Both the position numbers and the translations under genes were made by a program. Of a stretch of DNA of 64,000 nt, positions 3,716 to 59,703 are shown piece after piece. Origin of the DNA: Paludibacteraceae bacterium. GTDB lineage: Bacteria > Bacteroidota > Bacteroidia > Bacteroidales > Paludibacteraceae. Numbering within the stretch: position 1 is the first letter of the stretch; every line of letters starts with the position of its first letter. The stretch covers positions 186,001 to 250,000 of the forward strand of contig JAGBVI010000001.1 in assembly GCA_017630395.1 (NCBI GenBank), written 5' to 3'. A model generated the notes under the pieces. The model saw only the letters and a list, made by a program, of their open reading frames with translations, made no database searches and had not been told where the DNA came from.

Positions 3716-5080
3716 TTACATATCCCAAATGACTCTGTAATCATTCTGCAAGTAGTTTCTTGCTTCTTCTGTCTTGAATGTTTTAGTTCCCTTTGAGGTA
3801 TCAAAGTAAAGAAGATAGGGTTTGTGATATTCGATGAAATCTTTTATCCTTGTATATTCCTTTTCAGAAATAGTATCATTAAAAAGTCTACAGTTTTTCT
3901 TCTTTACTTGCTTTCTAAAGATGAACTTACCATTTTCTGCCTTTTCGACATAAAGCTTAATTCCCTTATGCTCCTCGTTCATTTTCTTTAGATGGTATGC
4001 TTCATCCTTAACACCCATGACTTCTGCCCAAGAATTATCAGACTTGAAATAACAAGTAATAGAAGTATCATTCTTATGATTCATAGCATTAAGAACATAC
4101 GTAATAATGTCATCATGTGTGAGATAATACTTCTTTTCTTCTGCATAGTAAGTCTCATAATACCTAACATCAGTAGCCAAGGTGTTTTCCACAGCCTTTC
4201 TCACTTCCTCATTCATCTCCTCAAAACAATCTTCGATGAACTTCTCTTTTGGATTTGATAACGAATCAAGATAGGCAGTGCGATAAGTTCCATCATCACG
4301 AAGAATTGCGAAAAGATATTGTTTGCTCTTTTTCTTACAAATTCTCCATCTATCTTCGCTATCTTTGATGTAACCCTCTTTCTTCTTGGTTTCTTCCTCG
4401 CCATTCCATGAGTATCTATTTTTCGTCCAAGAGTGTCTTGAATAGATGTCATGGCGACCTACGAACATCATCTTCTCTCCTTGCTTACTCTTATAGACAT
4501 GCCACATCTGCAAGTTTTTAGGAGTAATGTAACCTTGAGAATTAAGAATGTTAGAATATGCAATGTTATCCTTGAAAGTCTCAGAAGAACAAGGAATCAG
4601 AACTCTGTCTTTACCATCCCAACCATAAACAAACTCACCCTCAATGTCACCCTTGATTATTGAACAGTTGTCAATAATCCATGCGAGATTATTTTGTGTA
4701 ATCTCAAATACCCAACCTCTAGGGTCTTGGATTTCAAAAGAGACATTGCGATAAGAAGCAAATCTGTTATAACTGAAACGGTTTGCTTGCTTAAAGATTT
4801 TGAATCCCTTGGTAGGAACATTATCATGCTCCTCTGTGGGAACTTTCTCGGAAATCCAATTATTGAAAGAAGTCTCATGACGGAATTTGCCTTTCTCATC
4901 ATAATAAGAGACAAATCCCATCTTGTAAGTAGGCTCTGTTGTTTCTTCAACTTTTACATACTCACCATCAATACGAACATATCTTTTTACATAGCTATCA
5001 TCCTTTACGTGTCTGAGGTTGAACCCACATTTGAGCTTTTTAGGGATGAAAATGTTTTCTTTGATTTCTGCGTCTTTCAT
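3716..5080 (-). CDS. Hypothetical protein, 454 aa
   Basis: Not recognised. Soluble, charged and aromatic-rich, no signal peptide or membrane segment. Contains repeated short beta-like stretches (GEFVYGWDGKDRVLIP, RHSWTKNRYSW). Follows the next gene with a 2-nt gap, so probably one operon with 5083-5508. Confidence 0.75.
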   Translation of the reverse strand: MKDAEIKENIFIPKKLKCGFNLRHVKDDSYVKRYVRIDGEYVKVEETTEPTYKMGFVSYYDEKGKFRHETSFNNWISEKVPTEEHDNVPTKGFKIFKQANRFSYNRFASYRNVSFEIQDPRGWVFEITQNNLAWIIDNCSIIKGDIEGEFVYGWDGKDRVLIPCSSETFKDNIAYSNILNSQGYITPKNLQMWHVYKSKQGEKMMFVGRHDIYSRHSWTKNRYSWNGEEETKKKEGYIKDSEDRWRICKKKSKQYLFAILRDDGTYRTAYLDSLSNPKEKFIEDCFEEMNEEVRKAVENTLATDVRYYETYYAEEKKYYLTHDDIITYVLNAMNHKNDTSITCYFKSDNSWAEVMGVKDEAYHLKKMNEEHKGIKLYVEKAENGKFIFRKQVKKKNCRLFNDTISEKEYTRIKDFIEYHKPYLLYFDTSKGTKTFKTEEARNYLQNDYRVIWDM

Positions 5081-5082
5081 TT

Positions 5083-5508
5083 TTAAAAAAGATTTCTAAT
5101 CTTTACGAATTCAACACCATTGAGAATCGTCTTATGAACATACTTCTTATTATCCGTCTCTCTCACCACATTCGTAAACTCCTCTGACCAAGCATCTCTC
5201 AAACGCTGTTCCTCAGCATCAATGCCATCAATAAGGAGGTTACGAAGAGGAATGTCAAAGAGTTTGATTTCATAATTAGCGCTTGAACCATTTACAGTCT
5301 TGACAATCAGAGAACCATCATACCAAGTCCATTTCCAAATTTTCAGCTTGTGACAATCCTCAAGGTTCAATCTGATATAAGTATCATCATCAAAATGAAG
5401 TATAGCGATACGATAATGATAATCATCGTCATCAAACTCTACCTTAATAAGATTACGCATATCGATGTAATCTTGAATGTCGTCACTATTTGCGAATTCT
5501 GTTATCAT
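5083..5508 (-). CDS. Hypothetical acidic protein, leaderless start
   Basis: 141 aa, unrecognised, acidic (DDDDYHYR, FDDDTYIRLN). A TTGACA box, 17-bp spacer and TATAAT (about 5510-5545, minus strand) end 6 nt before the ATG, which places the expected +1 at the start codon; no Shine-Dalgarno is possible. Confidence 0.75.
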   Translation of the reverse strand: MITEFANSDDIQDYIDMRNLIKVEFDDDDYHYRIAILHFDDDTYIRLNLEDCHKLKIWKWTWYDGSLIVKTVNGSSANYEIKLFDIPLRNLLIDGIDAEEQRLRDAWSEEFTNVVRETDNKKYVHKTILNGVEFVKIRNLF

Positions 5509-5550
5509 ACGCAGATTATAAAATAAATTGTGAATGTTGTCAAGACTTTT

Positions 5551-6801
5551 TTAATTAGAAGACTTGAAATTATAGATAGGCTTAATGATGTCTACAATTT
5601 CAACAGTATCGCCAATGTTAGCAATAATTTCCTCCATTGGTTTATAGACCATAGGAGCTTCATCCAAAGTGTCCTTAGAAACCGAAGTAGTGAAGATACC
5701 ATTCATAGAAGACTTATAATCATCAAGATTGAGAGTTTCCTTAGCCTTTGCACGAGACATGATTCGTCCTGCTCCATGAGGTGCTGAACAGTTCCAATCT
5801 TCATTACCCTTACCAATGCAGATAAGAGAACCGTCACGCATATTCATGGGGATGAGTACCTTTTCCCCCTTCTTTGCAGAGATTGCACCCTTACGAATGA
5901 TACCTACTTCGTTAGTAAACCCATCACCATCATCATAGTAATTATGAATCGTGTGGAATCCTGTAGGAACAACAGTAGGATAATTACCATCCCAAATACC
6001 ATTTTCCCAAATAGCATAGGCAATCCTCTCGCGGTTATTCTTTGCCCATACCTGACACAGTTCCAAGTCATGAAGATATGCAGCCATGTGAGTTCCTTCA
6101 AGATAACATAAATCATCAGGAATTGTTTCCATCTTTTCTACCATCTTAACAGCCTTGATAGCAGACGGAATAATGTCAGAATAACCACCCTTTTTACACA
6201 CACGAACAATTTCCTTTGTCATGTCATCATAATATTCCTTTTTAGAACAATCCTTGATAGCCACGTTCTGATAATACTCACAAACCTGCTTACCGAGATT
6301 GCGAGAACCCGAATGAATTACAAGATACTTGTTACCATCCTTGTCTTCATTAATCTCAATGAAGTGATTACCACCACCGAGAGTACCCATTGAACGATAC
6401 AGACGTTCCACATTTTGTAAATGATTGATACAAAACATTTCGTCAATGAAATATTTCGACCAATACATCGACACATTTGGCATTCTCGTGTCGTCCTTTG
6501 CAAATACAGACTGACCATGAGGAACGAACTTACGAATAGCATTATCAATACGTTCCAAGTCAAGCTCTACCTTGCCAAGCTCTACACAATACATTCCACA
6601 ACCAATGTCAACACCTACAACATTAGGAATAATCTTATCGTCAACTGTGGAAGTGAAACCGATTACGCACCCCTTCCCTGCATGAACATCAGGCATAATG
6701 CGTACCTTGGAATTCTTGAAGGCTTCAAGTTCCATAAATGCGTTAATGTCATCAATCGCATTCTGTTCAATGTTGTCAGTAAAAATCTTTAAGTTCTTCA
6801 T
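5551..6801 (-). CDS. rtcB: RtcB-type RNA ligase
   Basis: 416 aa, close to the family's usual length (E. coli about 408). Shows the RtcB signature motifs: PDVHAGKG (37-44), VGVDIGCGM (62-70, metal-binding Asp/Cys), LGGGNHF (141-147), VIHSGSRNLG (161-170), HTIHN (283-287) and APHGAGRIMSR (340-350) with the guanylated His at 342. RtcB seals 2',3'-cyclic phosphate and 5'-OH RNA ends using GTP and Mn. In a phage with a large tRNA array the likely job is resealing tRNAs cut by host anticodon nucleases. It could also join processed halves of the split tRNAs in this window. Confidence 0.95.
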   Translation of the reverse strand: MKNLKIFTDNIEQNAIDDINAFMELEAFKNSKVRIMPDVHAGKGCVIGFTSTVDDKIIPNVVGVDIGCGMYCVELGKVELDLERIDNAIRKFVPHGQSVFAKDDTRMPNVSMYWSKYFIDEMFCINHLQNVERLYRSMGTLGGGNHFIEINEDKDGNKYLVIHSGSRNLGKQVCEYYQNVAIKDCSKKEYYDDMTKEIVRVCKKGGYSDIIPSAIKAVKMVEKMETIPDDLCYLEGTHMAAYLHDLELCQVWAKNNRERIAYAIWENGIWDGNYPTVVPTGFHTIHNYYDDGDGFTNEVGIIRKGAISAKKGEKVLIPMNMRDGSLICIGKGNEDWNCSAPHGAGRIMSRAKAKETLNLDDYKSSMNGIFTTSVSKDTLDEAPMVYKPMEEIIANIGDTVEIVDIIKPIYNFKSSN

Positions 6802-12298: not shown

Positions 12299-12373
12299 CA
12301 GTTATGGTGAGAATTGAACTCACGCCTTTCCTACGCATCACCGTATTCAGTTCTACCACTGAACTACATAACT
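12299..12373 (-). tRNA. tRNA-like, anticodon unresolved (possibly His)
   Basis: Acceptor AGTTATG/CATAACT, D-arm GTTC/GAAC and T-arm GTGAG-TTCAATT-CTCAC are all perfect. The anticodon arm is abnormal: TACG/CGTA closes a 6-nt loop GTGATG with no U33. GTG (His) is the only plausible anticodon. Could be degenerate or need processing. Confidence 0.5.
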
Positions 12374-12559: not shown

Positions 12560-12895
12560 CTCCGCAGCCTGGGCTCGAACCAGGGACCCAATGATTACCC
12601 AAAAGACTGATAATCAATAAGTTACGATTATCTTTCTTTCGTGGACTTTCTCTTCATCGTATCATTTCTGACTTAGATGCACCGTGTAAAGTCTCTGCAC
12701 ATAAAAGAACGATTGCTCGTTCAATCTTGCTCAGGATTGGGATAAGATTTATAGGCACTTATCCGTTCCCTGACTTAGCGGTGTGTTCACCTCAAAGTTT
12801 CCAATGAGGGCTGCCTATGCCTTGATTATTGCATAACACGCTTATAATCAACATGTTCTGACAGTCATTTGCTCTTCCAACTGAGCTACTGCGGA
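12560..12895 (-). tRNA. tRNA-Asn(GTT) interrupted by a group I intron
   Basis: 5' exon 12861-12895 (acceptor TCCGCAG, D-arm, stem AATGA, CTGT) and 3' exon 12560-12597 (TAA, stem TCATT, T-arm CCTGG-TTCGAGC-CCAGG, acceptor CTGCGGA). Joined, they give a near-consensus bacterial tRNA-Asn with loop CTGTTAA. The 263-nt insertion carries group I core sequences. Exact splice sites are provisional by one or two bases. Confidence 0.85.
12598..12860 (-). ncRNA. Group I intron in tRNA-Asn anticodon loop
   Basis: 263 nt. Contains AATCCTGAGCAA, then GTGCAGAGACTTTACACGG and later AAAGTCC, matching the conserved core elements of bacterial/plastid tRNA group I introns (IC3 type, as in trnL-UAA), plus an 8-bp P2-like hairpin TTGATTAT/ATAATCAA near its 5' end. 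The intron ends in G. No ORF inside, so no intron-encoded endonuclease. Confidence 0.85.
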
Positions 12896-13380
12896 ATTAG
12901 TTATTTCACTATCTTTTAATCTTCTTTCATCTGCTTACAAAACATATTATACATAAGTTCTATAATTAGATGGGAACTTTGACAGTTCCTTTCTGACAAG
13001 TTTTGCCAGTCTCTTTTTTCAGTTCTTACTTATCGCTTTTTGATTCGTGTGAACAAATATATTATAACGATGTTCTGAAAAGTTTTTCGTGTTTGTTGGT
13101 TATTTAGTAACCGATTTCACACAGAAAAGAGAAAAATTATTTGAAGTCCAATTTCCCTCTTTTATTATTTATAGTTCTGAGTACCGAAAAGAAAGAAAAA
13201 TGTGAAAGATTTTTTATTTTTTCTTTTTCAGTTCCCCTGAACGATTTATATTATACATGAGTTCTATAAACTTGTCAAGCATTTTTTCATAATTTTGTGA
13301 AAAAAGTTTGAAAAAGTTTTCTTGATTTTATTGGGTCATGGTATGAATAAGGTAAGACTCTCAAACAGCGTAAGACTGCT
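12896..13380. other. AT-rich non-coding stretch upstream of the tRNA group
   Basis: No ORF. Holds three minus-strand TATAAT boxes near 12948, 13062 and 13250, each preceded by GAAC-type sequence; only the last has a consensus -35. No recognisable CRISPR leader beyond AT-richness in its last 60 nt. Confidence 0.6.
13250..13278 (-). promoter_or_regulatory. Sigma70-type promoter for tRNA group
   Basis: TTGACA, 17-bp spacer containing AGAACTCATG, TATAAT; faces the 12.3-12.9 kb tRNAs. Confidence 0.75.
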
Positions 13381-13621
13381 GTGTTCATTATACCTTATAA
13401 AGAGCATAATAGAAACGATAAAGGGATGAAAAGTAAGAGCAGGATGAAGTGTTCATTATACCTTATAAAGAGCATAATAGAAACCAATTCTCTCCAAGGG
13501 CAGCGTGGCAAGGCTTGTGTTCATTATACCTTATAAAGAGCATAATAGAAACGGCTACACCTTGCTCATTGAGGATGTAAGAATCGTGTTCATTATACCT
13601 TATAAAGAGCATAATAGAAAC
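13381..13621 (-). CRISPR. CRISPR array: 4 identical 36-nt repeats, 3 spacers
   Basis: Repeats at 13381-13416, 13449-13484, 13517-13552 and 13586-13621 are identical; spacers are 32, 32 and 33 nt and unrelated to each other. The repeat holds an imperfect hairpin (ATTAT...ATAAT, inner CTT/AAG) and reads GTGTTC...GAAAC on plus, GTTTC...GAACAC on minus. It lies 112 nt downstream of the TnpB/Cas12-like gene. No cas1/cas2 nearby. Orientation is uncertain; cotranscription with the minus-strand effector is inferred. Confidence 0.92.
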
Positions 13622-13733
13622 ACTTATGTCTTAAACCATTGATTCTGTTTTTATTATGACATGAAGTATAATTTTATTTCTCATTTTTAAGCACATTTCT
13701 GTCCGAGAAAATGGCAAGAACACCTTGCCTGTA

Positions 13734-15032
13734 TCACTTATCCAGAACTGGATTCAGCTTTACGTTTATGTCTATTTTCTTAGGATTGAACACATTGGAC
13801 TTGACTGCAAAGGTATTCCCTGTTCCAAGACGAATGATATTCAATGACCCATTGATATCGGAATTGATAAGACCCTTTGTGACACTACGGTATAAACCGC
13901 GATGTTTGTGACCATTCATTTCAATTCCTCTTTTACCTCCATACTCATTGTCCTTATGTTTACAAATCTTGATATTATCCAAGAATGAACATTTGGATGT
14001 GTATGCTTCGTTCACCTCTATTAACTCACCACCGACATCCTCTAATTTGTATTTGAGCATATCAATAGCAGTTGCAAAAGGAATTTGGACAAAATTTTGA
14101 TTACCTTTTTTACCCATGTTTACCTTCTGCTTCCAGTCCTTATTATGACCGATTACACAAGTGCCGATGTTATTATCAATCATCATGTCAACTACTCTGC
14201 GAGAAGCCTTATGAAGATAATCCTTAATTTTCATCATGCGCTTTGCTTCCAGTCTTTTCAGACGCTTGGAGAACTTCTTTCCGTGTTTATTGAGAATAGA
14301 AGTGTAGTGTGCCTTTTTCTTGTTATAGTAGTGGTTGATAGCCTTTAATGGTCTGCCATTAACGAGGATAGATATTGACCCTTCGTTTGAAGTTACAGCC
14401 ATCAGGTTATTCAGCCCCAAATCTATACCAAGTGCATTATCCTTATTAAGACCTTTATCATCTACCTCTTTACGATAAACGATTTCAACCTTAATATGAT
14501 TATTGCTAGGAATAAGGCGAACCTCCTGAATCTTTGTTACTTTCGTGAAGACAGGAATCTTAACAGTCTTGGAGATGTTAATGCTTCCGTCCTTTTGAAT
14601 TCTGGCATCATCCTGTTCATAGATAAGAATGTTGGGAACTCCCTCTTTCTTATACTTTGGCATTTTCGGACGACCAGTGAATTTGGAAGGATTTTTCTTA
14701 TAAGCATTGAGTGCCTTGAACCATGCCTTCCAAATTGTATCTACCTGTATAATCACCTGATTGGCAGAATGACTCTTGTGCATTGCACGATAATCGTAAT
14801 CATTTAGTGCTGCCATTCTCTTTCGCATATCAAACTTCCCAACAAATCTCTCATCTTTGATGATGTCAATGAAATCAGGAATATTCTCGTGTTTACCAGT
14901 GAATGCCTGACGGTAGATGTACAGAGTTCGGTTATACAGATTACGAGACTTCAAAAACTCCTCAGAAGCCCACTCATAAAATGGGTCGGACTTCTTAATG
15001 AAGTGTGTCTCTACTCTGGTAACGTAACTCAT
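13734..15032 (-). CDS. TnpB/Cas12-like RuvC nuclease next to CRISPR array
   Basis: 432 aa, IS605 OrfB/TnpB family, about the size of TnpB and far shorter than Cas12a. RuvC-I Asp204 in GIDLG, RuvC-III Asp392 in SDINGS. In place of the usual RuvC-II Glu after a beta strand it has VIGHNKDWKQ, as in the TnpB subgroup with I-G-x-N-x-x-WKQ; Glu342 in NEAYTSKCS is the likely substitute. The zinc-finger Cys pairs are largely missing (one Cys in SKCSF, one in KICKH). No TnpA gene or IS ends are seen, it has a phage-type promoter (15066-15094), and an array lies just downstream, so it is more likely a compact type V-like effector than a transposon passenger. Guide use is inference. Confidence 0.9.
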   Translation of the reverse strand: MSYVTRVETHFIKKSDPFYEWASEEFLKSRNLYNRTLYIYRQAFTGKHENIPDFIDIIKDERFVGKFDMRKRMAALNDYDYRAMHKSHSANQVIIQVDTIWKAWFKALNAYKKNPSKFTGRPKMPKYKKEGVPNILIYEQDDARIQKDGSINISKTVKIPVFTKVTKIQEVRLIPSNNHIKVEIVYRKEVDDKGLNKDNALGIDLGLNNLMAVTSNEGSISILVNGRPLKAINHYYNKKKAHYTSILNKHGKKFSKRLKRLEAKRMMKIKDYLHKASRRVVDMMIDNNIGTCVIGHNKDWKQKVNMGKKGNQNFVQIPFATAIDMLKYKLEDVGGELIEVNEAYTSKCSFLDNIKICKHKDNEYGGKRGIEMNGHKHRGLYRSVTKGLINSDINGSLNIIRLGTGNTFAVKSNVFNPKKIDINVKLNPVLDK

Positions 15033-15065: not shown

Positions 15066-15094
15066 ATTTTATCAGATTATTCAGTTCCTGTCAA
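15066..15094 (-). promoter_or_regulatory. Promoter of the TnpB/Cas12-like gene
   Basis: TTGACA, 17-bp spacer containing GGAACTGAATAATC, TAAAAT; leaves a leader of about 30 nt. Same architecture as other phage promoters here. Confidence 0.75.
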
Positions 15095-15187
15095 GAAAAA
15101 TTATTCAGTTTTTGCAAAATTGTGTGATATAAATGCGACTCCTCTTCAAATGTGGGAAAGGCGTGCTAGTCATCTTTACAAAAATGA

Positions 15188-48975: not shown

Positions 48976-49055
48976 GCTATTATTTAGTGACTTGAACAGA
49001 AAAAGAAATTATTTTATGAGGTTTTACCACTAAACTAACTTCACCATTATGAGAA

Positions 49056-49129
49056 TGGCCCCCCACGGTGTCGCGCCGTGTCTTCAGGTTTTAGAGACCT
49101 GCTTGCTAACTATCTTACAACAGAGGGCT
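49056..49129 (-). tRNA. Amber suppressor tRNA (anticodon CTA)
   Basis: Anticodon arm CAGGT-CTCTAAA-ACCTG gives anticodon CUA, reading UAG. D-stem TTGT/GCAA, T-stem CACGG/CCGTG (loop CGCGACA, not the usual TTC). Acceptor AGCCCTC/GGGGGCC has the same A1-C72 mismatch, G2-C71, C3-G70 and A73 as the phage tRNA-Gln, and G2-C71/C3-G70 are GlnRS identity pairs. Predicted to insert Gln. Confidence 0.85.
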
Positions 49130-49146
49130 ATATAATAAATTATTAC

Positions 49147-58130: not shown

Positions 58131-58244
58131 AATCCATGAAAGGATTTGAACCTTCATCCCCCTACTCGCTCTTGCTTACTATCTTCGCTTTTCAGCGCCT
58201 TTTTCAGCTCACTTTTGAGTGTTTTACCATTAAACTACATGGAC
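58131..58244 (-). tRNA. tRNA-like with about 40-nt insertion in the anticodon loop
   Basis: Acceptor GTCCATG/CATGGAT, D-arm GTTT-AATGGTA-AAAC and T-arm GAAGG-TTCAAAT-CCTTT are good. Between them ACTC and GAGT could pair as the anticodon stem around about 48 nt, far more than a normal loop. Too short for a group I intron; identity unknown. Confidence 0.45.
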
Positions 58245-59458: not shown

Positions 59459-59474
59459 TTTTTTGTACTTCCAT

Positions 59475-59588
59475 CTCAGGCGGGTAGGTCATTTTTCATA
59501 CCTCACCATTCGCACCCTGAGATTTCCGTCTCTCGCATTGGGCGGGTAGGTCATTTTTCATACCTCACCATTCGCACCCCAATGCGAG
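59475..59588. ncRNA. Two tandem structured elements with identical core
   Basis: 59475-59521 and 59532-59588 share an identical 37-nt core (begins CGGGTAGGTCATTTTTCATA, ends CACCATTCGCACCC) closed by different perfect stems: CTCAGG/CCTGAG and CTCGCATTGGG/CCCAATGCGAG. Conserved core with changed but still paired stems indicates a functional RNA. Confidence 0.65.
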
Positions 59589-59703
59589 ATTTTATTTTGG
59601 AAAATTTACTGATTCTGTCAATCTTTCTCCTACTGCCTACTGATGATTGGCATTCTCATCAGATTTAGTAGTGGGATGTGGCATCCCTTGTTTGTGTGAC
59701 CAC

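Follow-up and report, generated by a model that had tools for sequence, protein, structure and literature searches.

Does a TnpB-like nuclease encoded by a giant phage take its guides from the small CRISPR array that lies beside its gene, or do the two merely share a stretch of DNA? How transposon nucleases come to gain CRISPR arrays is an open question, for which few natural intermediates are available. The locus considered here lies in the window (the whole stretch of 64,000 nucleotides that was analysed), which corresponds to bases 186001-250000 of contig C113 (375,692 bp), in an assembly of 3.57 Mb. This contig is a giant phage, with a tail sheath, a major head protein and a DNA polymerase among 10 scanned proteins. 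Its head protein is a distant relative of the gp23 type (about 30-33% identity in the best INPHARED rows) and has no relative in IMG/VR, and bases 1-25000 of the window have no near DNA match among the 50,697 phage records of INPHARED.

Layout of the array and its surroundings

The array occupies window positions 13381-13621 and is made of four identical 36-nt repeats and three unrelated spacers of 32, 32 and 33 nt, with a spacing of 68/68/69, so that identical repeats and unique spacers, the marks of a CRISPR array, are both present. Assigned to the minus strand, its parts are repeat 1 (13381-13416), spacer S1 (13417-13448, 32 nt), repeat 2 (13449-13484), S2 (13485-13516, 32 nt), repeat 3 (13517-13552), S3 (13553-13585, 33 nt) and repeat 4 (13586-13621), which is the first repeat past tnpB. 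The tnpB-like gene is an intact open reading frame of 432 amino acids at 13734-15032, on the same strand, and its stop codon is separated from the array by 112 nt. A first-pass annotation of this DNA had described four identical 36-nt repeats with three unrelated 32-33-nt spacers directly 3' of a RuvC protein, at 13381..15032; the repeat coordinates and the distance to the tnpB stop codon bear out this description, and its limits are correct.

When up to 3 mismatches are allowed, exactly four sites in the 3.57-Mb assembly match the repeat, and none matches a reversed control pattern. A search of C113 with exact 18-mer seeds, requiring paired repeats of 22 nt or more at distances of 48-100 nt, revealed no further array with four identical repeats. 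Other spaced repeat pairs do occur in this contig, for example 69 nt (23 codons) apart at 271457-275332, and these are probably coding repeats.

The interval between gene and array (13622-13733, minus strand, 112 nt) is a candidate site for an omegaRNA or tracr-like scaffold. It contains, at 13647-13672, a weak, imperfect inverted match to the repeat (GTTTTTATTATG..), which may be an anti-repeat or a worn copy of the hairpin, and whose score, in one of 8 tests run, was matched by 11 of 500 shuffles. Array and TnpB are flanked by an inverted pair (13309-13325 and 15091-15107; 17 nt, 88% complementary), and a related locus, L002, has a 24-nt inverted pair (83%) around its TnpB; both pairs could possibly be element ends, or occur by chance in AT-rich DNA.

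How surprising is the adjacency itself? In a mechanical set of 596 open reading frames of C113, 3 of the 498 gaps immediately follow the 3' end of a tnpB; on a per-base weighting, the chance of adjacency is about 5% (1,823 of 34,177 bases in gaps of at least 241 bp). The gap that holds the array is 1,512 bp long and also contains tRNA genes according to ARAGORN. An Rfam tRNA at 12299-12373 is missing from the ARAGORN list, and a tRNA-like fragment can be seen by eye at about 12860-12896.

On which strand would the array be read? A promoter-like site (TTGACA-17-TAAAAT, 11/12 consensus match) precedes tnpB at 15066-15094 on the minus strand, about 34 nt ahead of the start codon. The next such site (TTGACA-17-TATAAT, 12/12), at 13250-13278 on the minus strand, lies beyond the array and points away from it, which suggests that it marks the end of the tnpB-array unit. 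Promoter and terminator calls are consensus matches only, and promoter-like matches across the region are at chance level (11 found, 11.9 expected), the outliers being two 12/12 sites and the 11/12 site of tnpB. On the plus strand, none of the promoter-like sites ahead of the array is better than 9/12, and a terminator-like hairpin (13365-13382) overlaps the array edge. Given the minus-strand promoter-like sites, the weak plus-strand sites and the orientation of the open reading frames (17 of 18 between 10.2 and 22.2 kb are on the minus strand), tnpB and the array probably form one minus-strand transcription unit, with the array in the 3' part of the transcript. A terminator-like hairpin with a weak T tail, at 13713-13729 on the minus strand just past the tnpB stop, is a possible attenuator between gene and array and could weaken the case for co-transcription.

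Elsewhere in the phage, a 39-nt motif occurs twice at window positions 59479-59579, each time within a stem whose bases differ between the copies yet still pair. The folds of this region (59469-59594) have z-scores of -3.4 and -5.7 on the plus strand and -2.2 and -5.6 on the minus strand, it has no Rfam match at the gathering threshold, and the motif pair looks like a structured RNA element. Reading through TAG lengthens the longest frames from 509 to 1263, 634 to 1489 and 361 to 2059 codons in C113 segments 60001-80000, 140001-160000 and 290001-310000, while reading through TGA gives only 509, 650 and 380 codons in the same segments, which suggests TAG recoding in part of the phage. A tRNA with a CTA anticodon is predicted by ARAGORN at window positions 49055-49130 and is absent from the Rfam listing; conversely, an Rfam tRNA spanning 114 nt (58131-58244) is missing from the ARAGORN list.

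The TnpB protein and its relatives

The encoded protein carries the OrfB_IS605 domain (PF01385, E 1.2e-22) and the Cas12f1-like TNB domain (PF07282, E 2.1e-8), and its residues D204, E342 and D392 are invariant in all 39 aligned rows, making them a candidate RuvC triad in which the glutamate takes an alternative position. These two domains and the D-E-D residues are those of a TnpB (OMEGA) nuclease. The stretch that we take to be the usual glutamate site reads VIGHN, and E342 lies six residues ahead of C348. An alternative RuvC-II glutamate layout is described for TnpB in PMC10711439, and the E342-C348 layout is like it; the window protein differs from that TnpB in having no CxxC zinc finger by eye and DLG, not DPG, in RuvC-I.

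The predicted fold (mean pLDDT 89.7, pTM 0.81, from a model built on 39 aligned sequences) has AsCas12f structures as its top PDB matches (8j3r, E 1e-15), with the TnpB-omegaRNA complex 8h1j at rank 14 (E 1.2e-11) and LaTranC (9jfq) at rank 42. Target TM-scores reverse the order of the E-values, with 0.61 for AsCas12f and 0.67 for TnpB. A single RuvC effector, a TnpB/Cas12 fold and an adjoining array, as in type V systems, are thus all found at this locus. Does this make the protein a Cas12? C113 contains three TnpB genes, and the two paralogs of the window protein, 58% identical (C113:52152-53411) and 45% identical to it, have no arrays; the first-pass annotation was unaware of them. The best Cas12f-model score of the window protein is 57.9 bits, and the array-less paralogs reach 59.0 and 69.0 bits; with two further Cas12f models, the higher score goes to the window protein rather than to its paralogs. 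Since paralogs lacking arrays match Cas12f models about as well, such matches do not make the window protein a Cas12, and the label Cas12-like first given to it turns out not to be distinctive.

The arrangement seen in the window was found at none of 166 related loci (164 plus 2, drawn from the best 80 of 208 viral matches, the best 80 of 145 genomic matches and a few more, the 58% and 45% paralogs being included), whose flanks covered 1.5-4 kb, some clipped at contig ends. The effector-array association is therefore seen once here, and the initial proposal of a type V-like system is not matched by a conserved association. In a FastTree phylogeny of 133 rows, containing no Cas12 reference, the window TnpB pairs with L002, with L010 next.

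CRISPR-like repeats do lie near TnpB at three related loci. In L077 (IMGVR_UViG_3300043436_004687, 339,635 bp), a many-repeat array with some worn repeats, followed by a Cas6b-type gene, is found near TnpB at 4830-6378; it is a viral array accompanied by a likely processing enzyme of its own, and for this reason was rejected as a second TnpB-array case. L133 and L121 were set aside as parallel cases, being of different make: the L133 repeat, presumably of type I-C from its looks, is about 2 kb away, and L121, from a Prevotellaceae MAG, has a pair of perfect 37-nt repeats and a third, worn copy, separated by spacers of about 25 nt, directly upstream of tnpB (597-760). On visual inspection, the repeats flagged at L008, L097, L099, L107, L110, L113 (one 24-nt pair), L141 and L154 were classed as tandem, coding or low-complexity.

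Repeat ends and element ends

Read on the minus strand, the repeat contains an AT-rich hairpin (ATTATGC..GTATAAT) followed by a terminal GAACAC. The ends of TnpB elements in relatives were mapped by comparing copies, and read ..AATAACCT in Tepidibacter, ..ATAACGT in Mitsuokella (two bases further in one species pair), ..CATAACCT(A) in Thermoplasmata and ..ATAACCA in Ruminococcus, the last one being placed by eye, as the alignment continues a few bases. All four elements finish with AAC plus about 2 nt. Tepidibacter, Mitsuokella and Ruminococcus each have at least one copy with a hairpin of at least 7 bp directly before AAC, and the Thermoplasmata pair has no simple 7-bp hairpin right before the element end. 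Differing ends, among those listed, are ..GTATTCAT in Paenibacillus and ..ATAGCCA in one Lachnospiraceae group.

Among the 127 relatives with enough downstream sequence, 28 have a hairpin of at least 7 bp with AAC within 3 nt, located no more than 220 nt downstream, against 11, 10, 18, 9 and 7 in five shuffled sets. Swapping AAC for ACC or AAA also gives counts somewhat raised over shuffles, and GAA, CAA and TTC little or no excess. Matches to the motif, as distinct from mapped ends, include GAACTC (L087), GAACAT (L082 and L083) and GAACTG (L166); L002 and L010, the nearest relatives, have the feature in a short or displaced form.

Of the 751,384 strand positions in C113, 269 carry the hairpin followed by AACNN. 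The hairpin alone is present at 2.1% of 20,000 random positions, and the background once a hairpin is given is about 1.7% per strand, or about 3% on either strand. Between 12500 and 15100, only the four repeats show the feature, on the minus strand and in register with the spacers, and it is missing from all 8 strand ends that four further CRISPR repeats provide. With E values of up to 1 allowed, Rfam gives no omegaRNA-type family for any of the three TnpB loci.

Because the motif and its thresholds were chosen post hoc, with the repeat already known, the likeness is only suggestive: the minus-strand end of the repeat resembles the ..AACNN ends mapped for several members of the TnpB family, though not for every one. 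The resemblance extends to elements of several subclades and, together with the position of the array directly 3' of an intact TnpB, partly supports the first-pass interpretation.

Possible users of the array and comparison with known systems

What could the spacers target? Self-targeting was rejected, the best matches of S1, S2 and S3 in C113 having 10, 10 and 11 mismatches against 9-11, 11-13 and 11-13 in 20 shuffles each; the S2 match is one mismatch below its shuffles, yet not close. The spacers have no close match among INPHARED phages (best E 3 or worse), none in 61 genomes, their own included, other than the array itself (up to 3 mismatches), and none in IMG/VR by exact 22-mers; S2, the spacer compared with plasmids, has no match there. 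The spacer search that had been proposed along with the initial description of the locus thus returned no protospacer in any of these collections, and the suggested use against rival phages or host genes is conjectural.

The only Cas1 match in the assembly is on contig C20, beside Cas4, a 1,255-aa Cas12a and an array with 42 counted repeats. We take C20 as a host contig, the true host of the phage not being certain. The early statement that Cas1 and Cas2 are missing stands in its Cas1 part, with no match in the phage. The Cas12a repeat of C20 is unrelated to that of the phage array, and use of the phage array by this Cas12a was rejected on that ground. An attack of the host on the phage through the C20 array was rejected as well, the best two of its 41 spacers having 6 mismatches and shuffled controls at least 7. 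One Cas6 model and one RAMP model gave no match in the phage or the assembly at E up to 0.1; the same models are positive in 6 and 5 of 14 control genomes. A PADLOC scan of 250 of the 253 C113 open reading frames of at least 150 aa (the three TnpBs were left out) is dominated by methyltransferases among the 25 families listed of 110 and 106, and DNA methyltransferase genes are numerous, at least 7 of 129 and at least 3 of 121 open reading frames matching PADLOC models.

The array repeat is absent from the other 357 genomes of the family and its 32-nt core from the other 392 genomes of the order (both with up to 3 mismatches), so that a repeat shared with a host array, as in virus-borne mini-arrays, was not found among them. 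It is also absent from IMG/VR, searched with the exact repeat and with a degenerate core, and gives nothing convincing in plasmids or phages (best E about 1 and 5). In its plus-strand form, the repeat makes an 11-bp hairpin and leaves a 9-nt tail whose last bases are GAAAC (-6.7 kcal/mol, z -3.3), and the minus-strand fold has -7.0 kcal/mol and z -2.75, 2 of 200 shuffles being as good in each case. A hairpin followed by a GAAAC tail is the shape typical of Cas6-processed repeats.

The account that we tentatively favor, while granting it somewhat less than an even chance, is that TnpB takes its guides from the array. One minus-strand phage transcript would carry tnpB and then the array in its 3' part, and TnpB would bind a guide RNA that has an AT-rich hairpin plus (G)AACNN at the end of its scaffold. 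Each minus-strand repeat would provide such a scaffold end, with the ATTATGC..GTATAAT hairpin and then GAACAC, so that each following spacer would serve as a guide, and TnpB, with its candidate RuvC residues in place, would cut spacer-matching DNA, whether from the host, a plasmid or another phage. With no Cas1 match in the phage, new spacers would have to be supplied in trans, or else the array would be static. That element ends are guide RNA ends is what we infer, along with co-transcription, processing, loading, cutting and targets. In favor of it speak the position of the array, the strand signals, the likeness between repeat end and element ends, the lack of Cas6-model or RAMP-model matches in the assembly, and the predicted fold. 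Against this account stand the 0/166 loci, the post hoc motif, the deviating element ends, the intervening hairpin, the lack of protospacers and the Cas6-like shape of the plus-strand repeat; the usual TnpB guide is about 16-20 nt, and the greater length of the 32-33-nt spacers also counts against it. The array might moreover have been built from TnpB's own omegaRNA, whose 3' terminal hairpin and final (G)AACNN would have been duplicated into repeats inside the phage, an origin that we consider rather unlikely. Were it true, a CRISPR system would have been caught at its birth from an OMEGA system, with a TnpB reading several guides.

Could the array serve another system, or none? It may be a virus-borne mini-array acting in trans, whose plus-strand crRNAs would be made for a Cas6-type (type I/III) system of the host or of a co-infecting element, TnpB being a mere neighbor. 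We regard this as somewhat unlikely and rank it second because of the plus-strand repeat, whose stable hairpin and GAAAC-ending tail have the shape of Cas6-type repeats; the Cas6b-type gene beside the array in the viral TnpB neighborhood of L077 and the cas-less mini-arrays of archaeal viruses, published in PMC6858448, speak in its favor too. It sits poorly with the absence of the repeat from the family and order genomes, the lack of Cas6-model or RAMP-model matches in the assembly, the unrelated repeat of its one mapped system (Cas12a), and plus-strand promoter-like sites that do not exceed 9/12. A relic, that is, a cut-off array that landed by coincidence in a tRNA-rich intergenic stretch and is unused, TnpB working with its own omegaRNA if at all, seems quite unlikely to us: it would account for there being only three spacers, no targets found and no conservation in relatives, and the long gap is a likely landing place, but no decay is visible in four identical repeats, and adjacency, strand and repeat end fit TnpB. 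Very improbable, finally, are spaced regulatory repeats, either operators or promoter-like units. Every repeat does contain GGTATAATG, and TATAAT on the minus strand, but palindromic 36-nt repeats with unrelated 32-33-nt spacers at 68/68/69 spacing are CRISPR-like, and no promoter-like site is listed inside the array.

If TnpB and the array function together, as in the favored account, they would constitute a very small multi-guide nuclease unit of about 1.7 kb, and the presence of one arrayed and two array-less related TnpBs could be used to test the uptake of guides from repeats within one protein family.

Where does this locus stand among known systems? TranC, a TnpB-related nuclease bordering omegaRNA and CRISPR guidance, uses a split omegaRNA (tracrRNA plus crRNA). 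Jin et al. (2025, Cell) reportedly present, going by their title, RNA splitting as the route from transposons to type V systems, with TranC as a step between TnpB and Cas12. LaTranC is among the fold matches of the window protein, with Cas12f and TnpB ranking higher. Cas12f and the type V-F and V-U systems are like the window locus in fold (8j3r), PF07282 and a compact RuvC effector by an array, and differ from it in that here the array association is not conserved and array-less paralogs match Cas12f models similarly. The mini-CRISPR arrays of PMC6858448 share with the array in the window few spacers and no adaptation gene found; in the window, unlike there, no host array with the same repeat was found and a TnpB lies next door. 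In the literature searched, there is no case of a phage with one TnpB copy beside an array and two copies without, in which the end of a CRISPR repeat is matched to that of the TnpB element. Also close are the landfill viruses of PMC12607003, with phage TnpB genes (401 and 433 aa) near CRISPR arrays; like the window protein, these TnpBs are virus-encoded, have all three RuvC motifs and lie near an array, and the accessible text contains no comparison of repeats with omegaRNA such as the one made here. Viral TnpB near CRISPR arrays is thus already reported (PMC12607003), and the locus in the window is a variant of the same kind.
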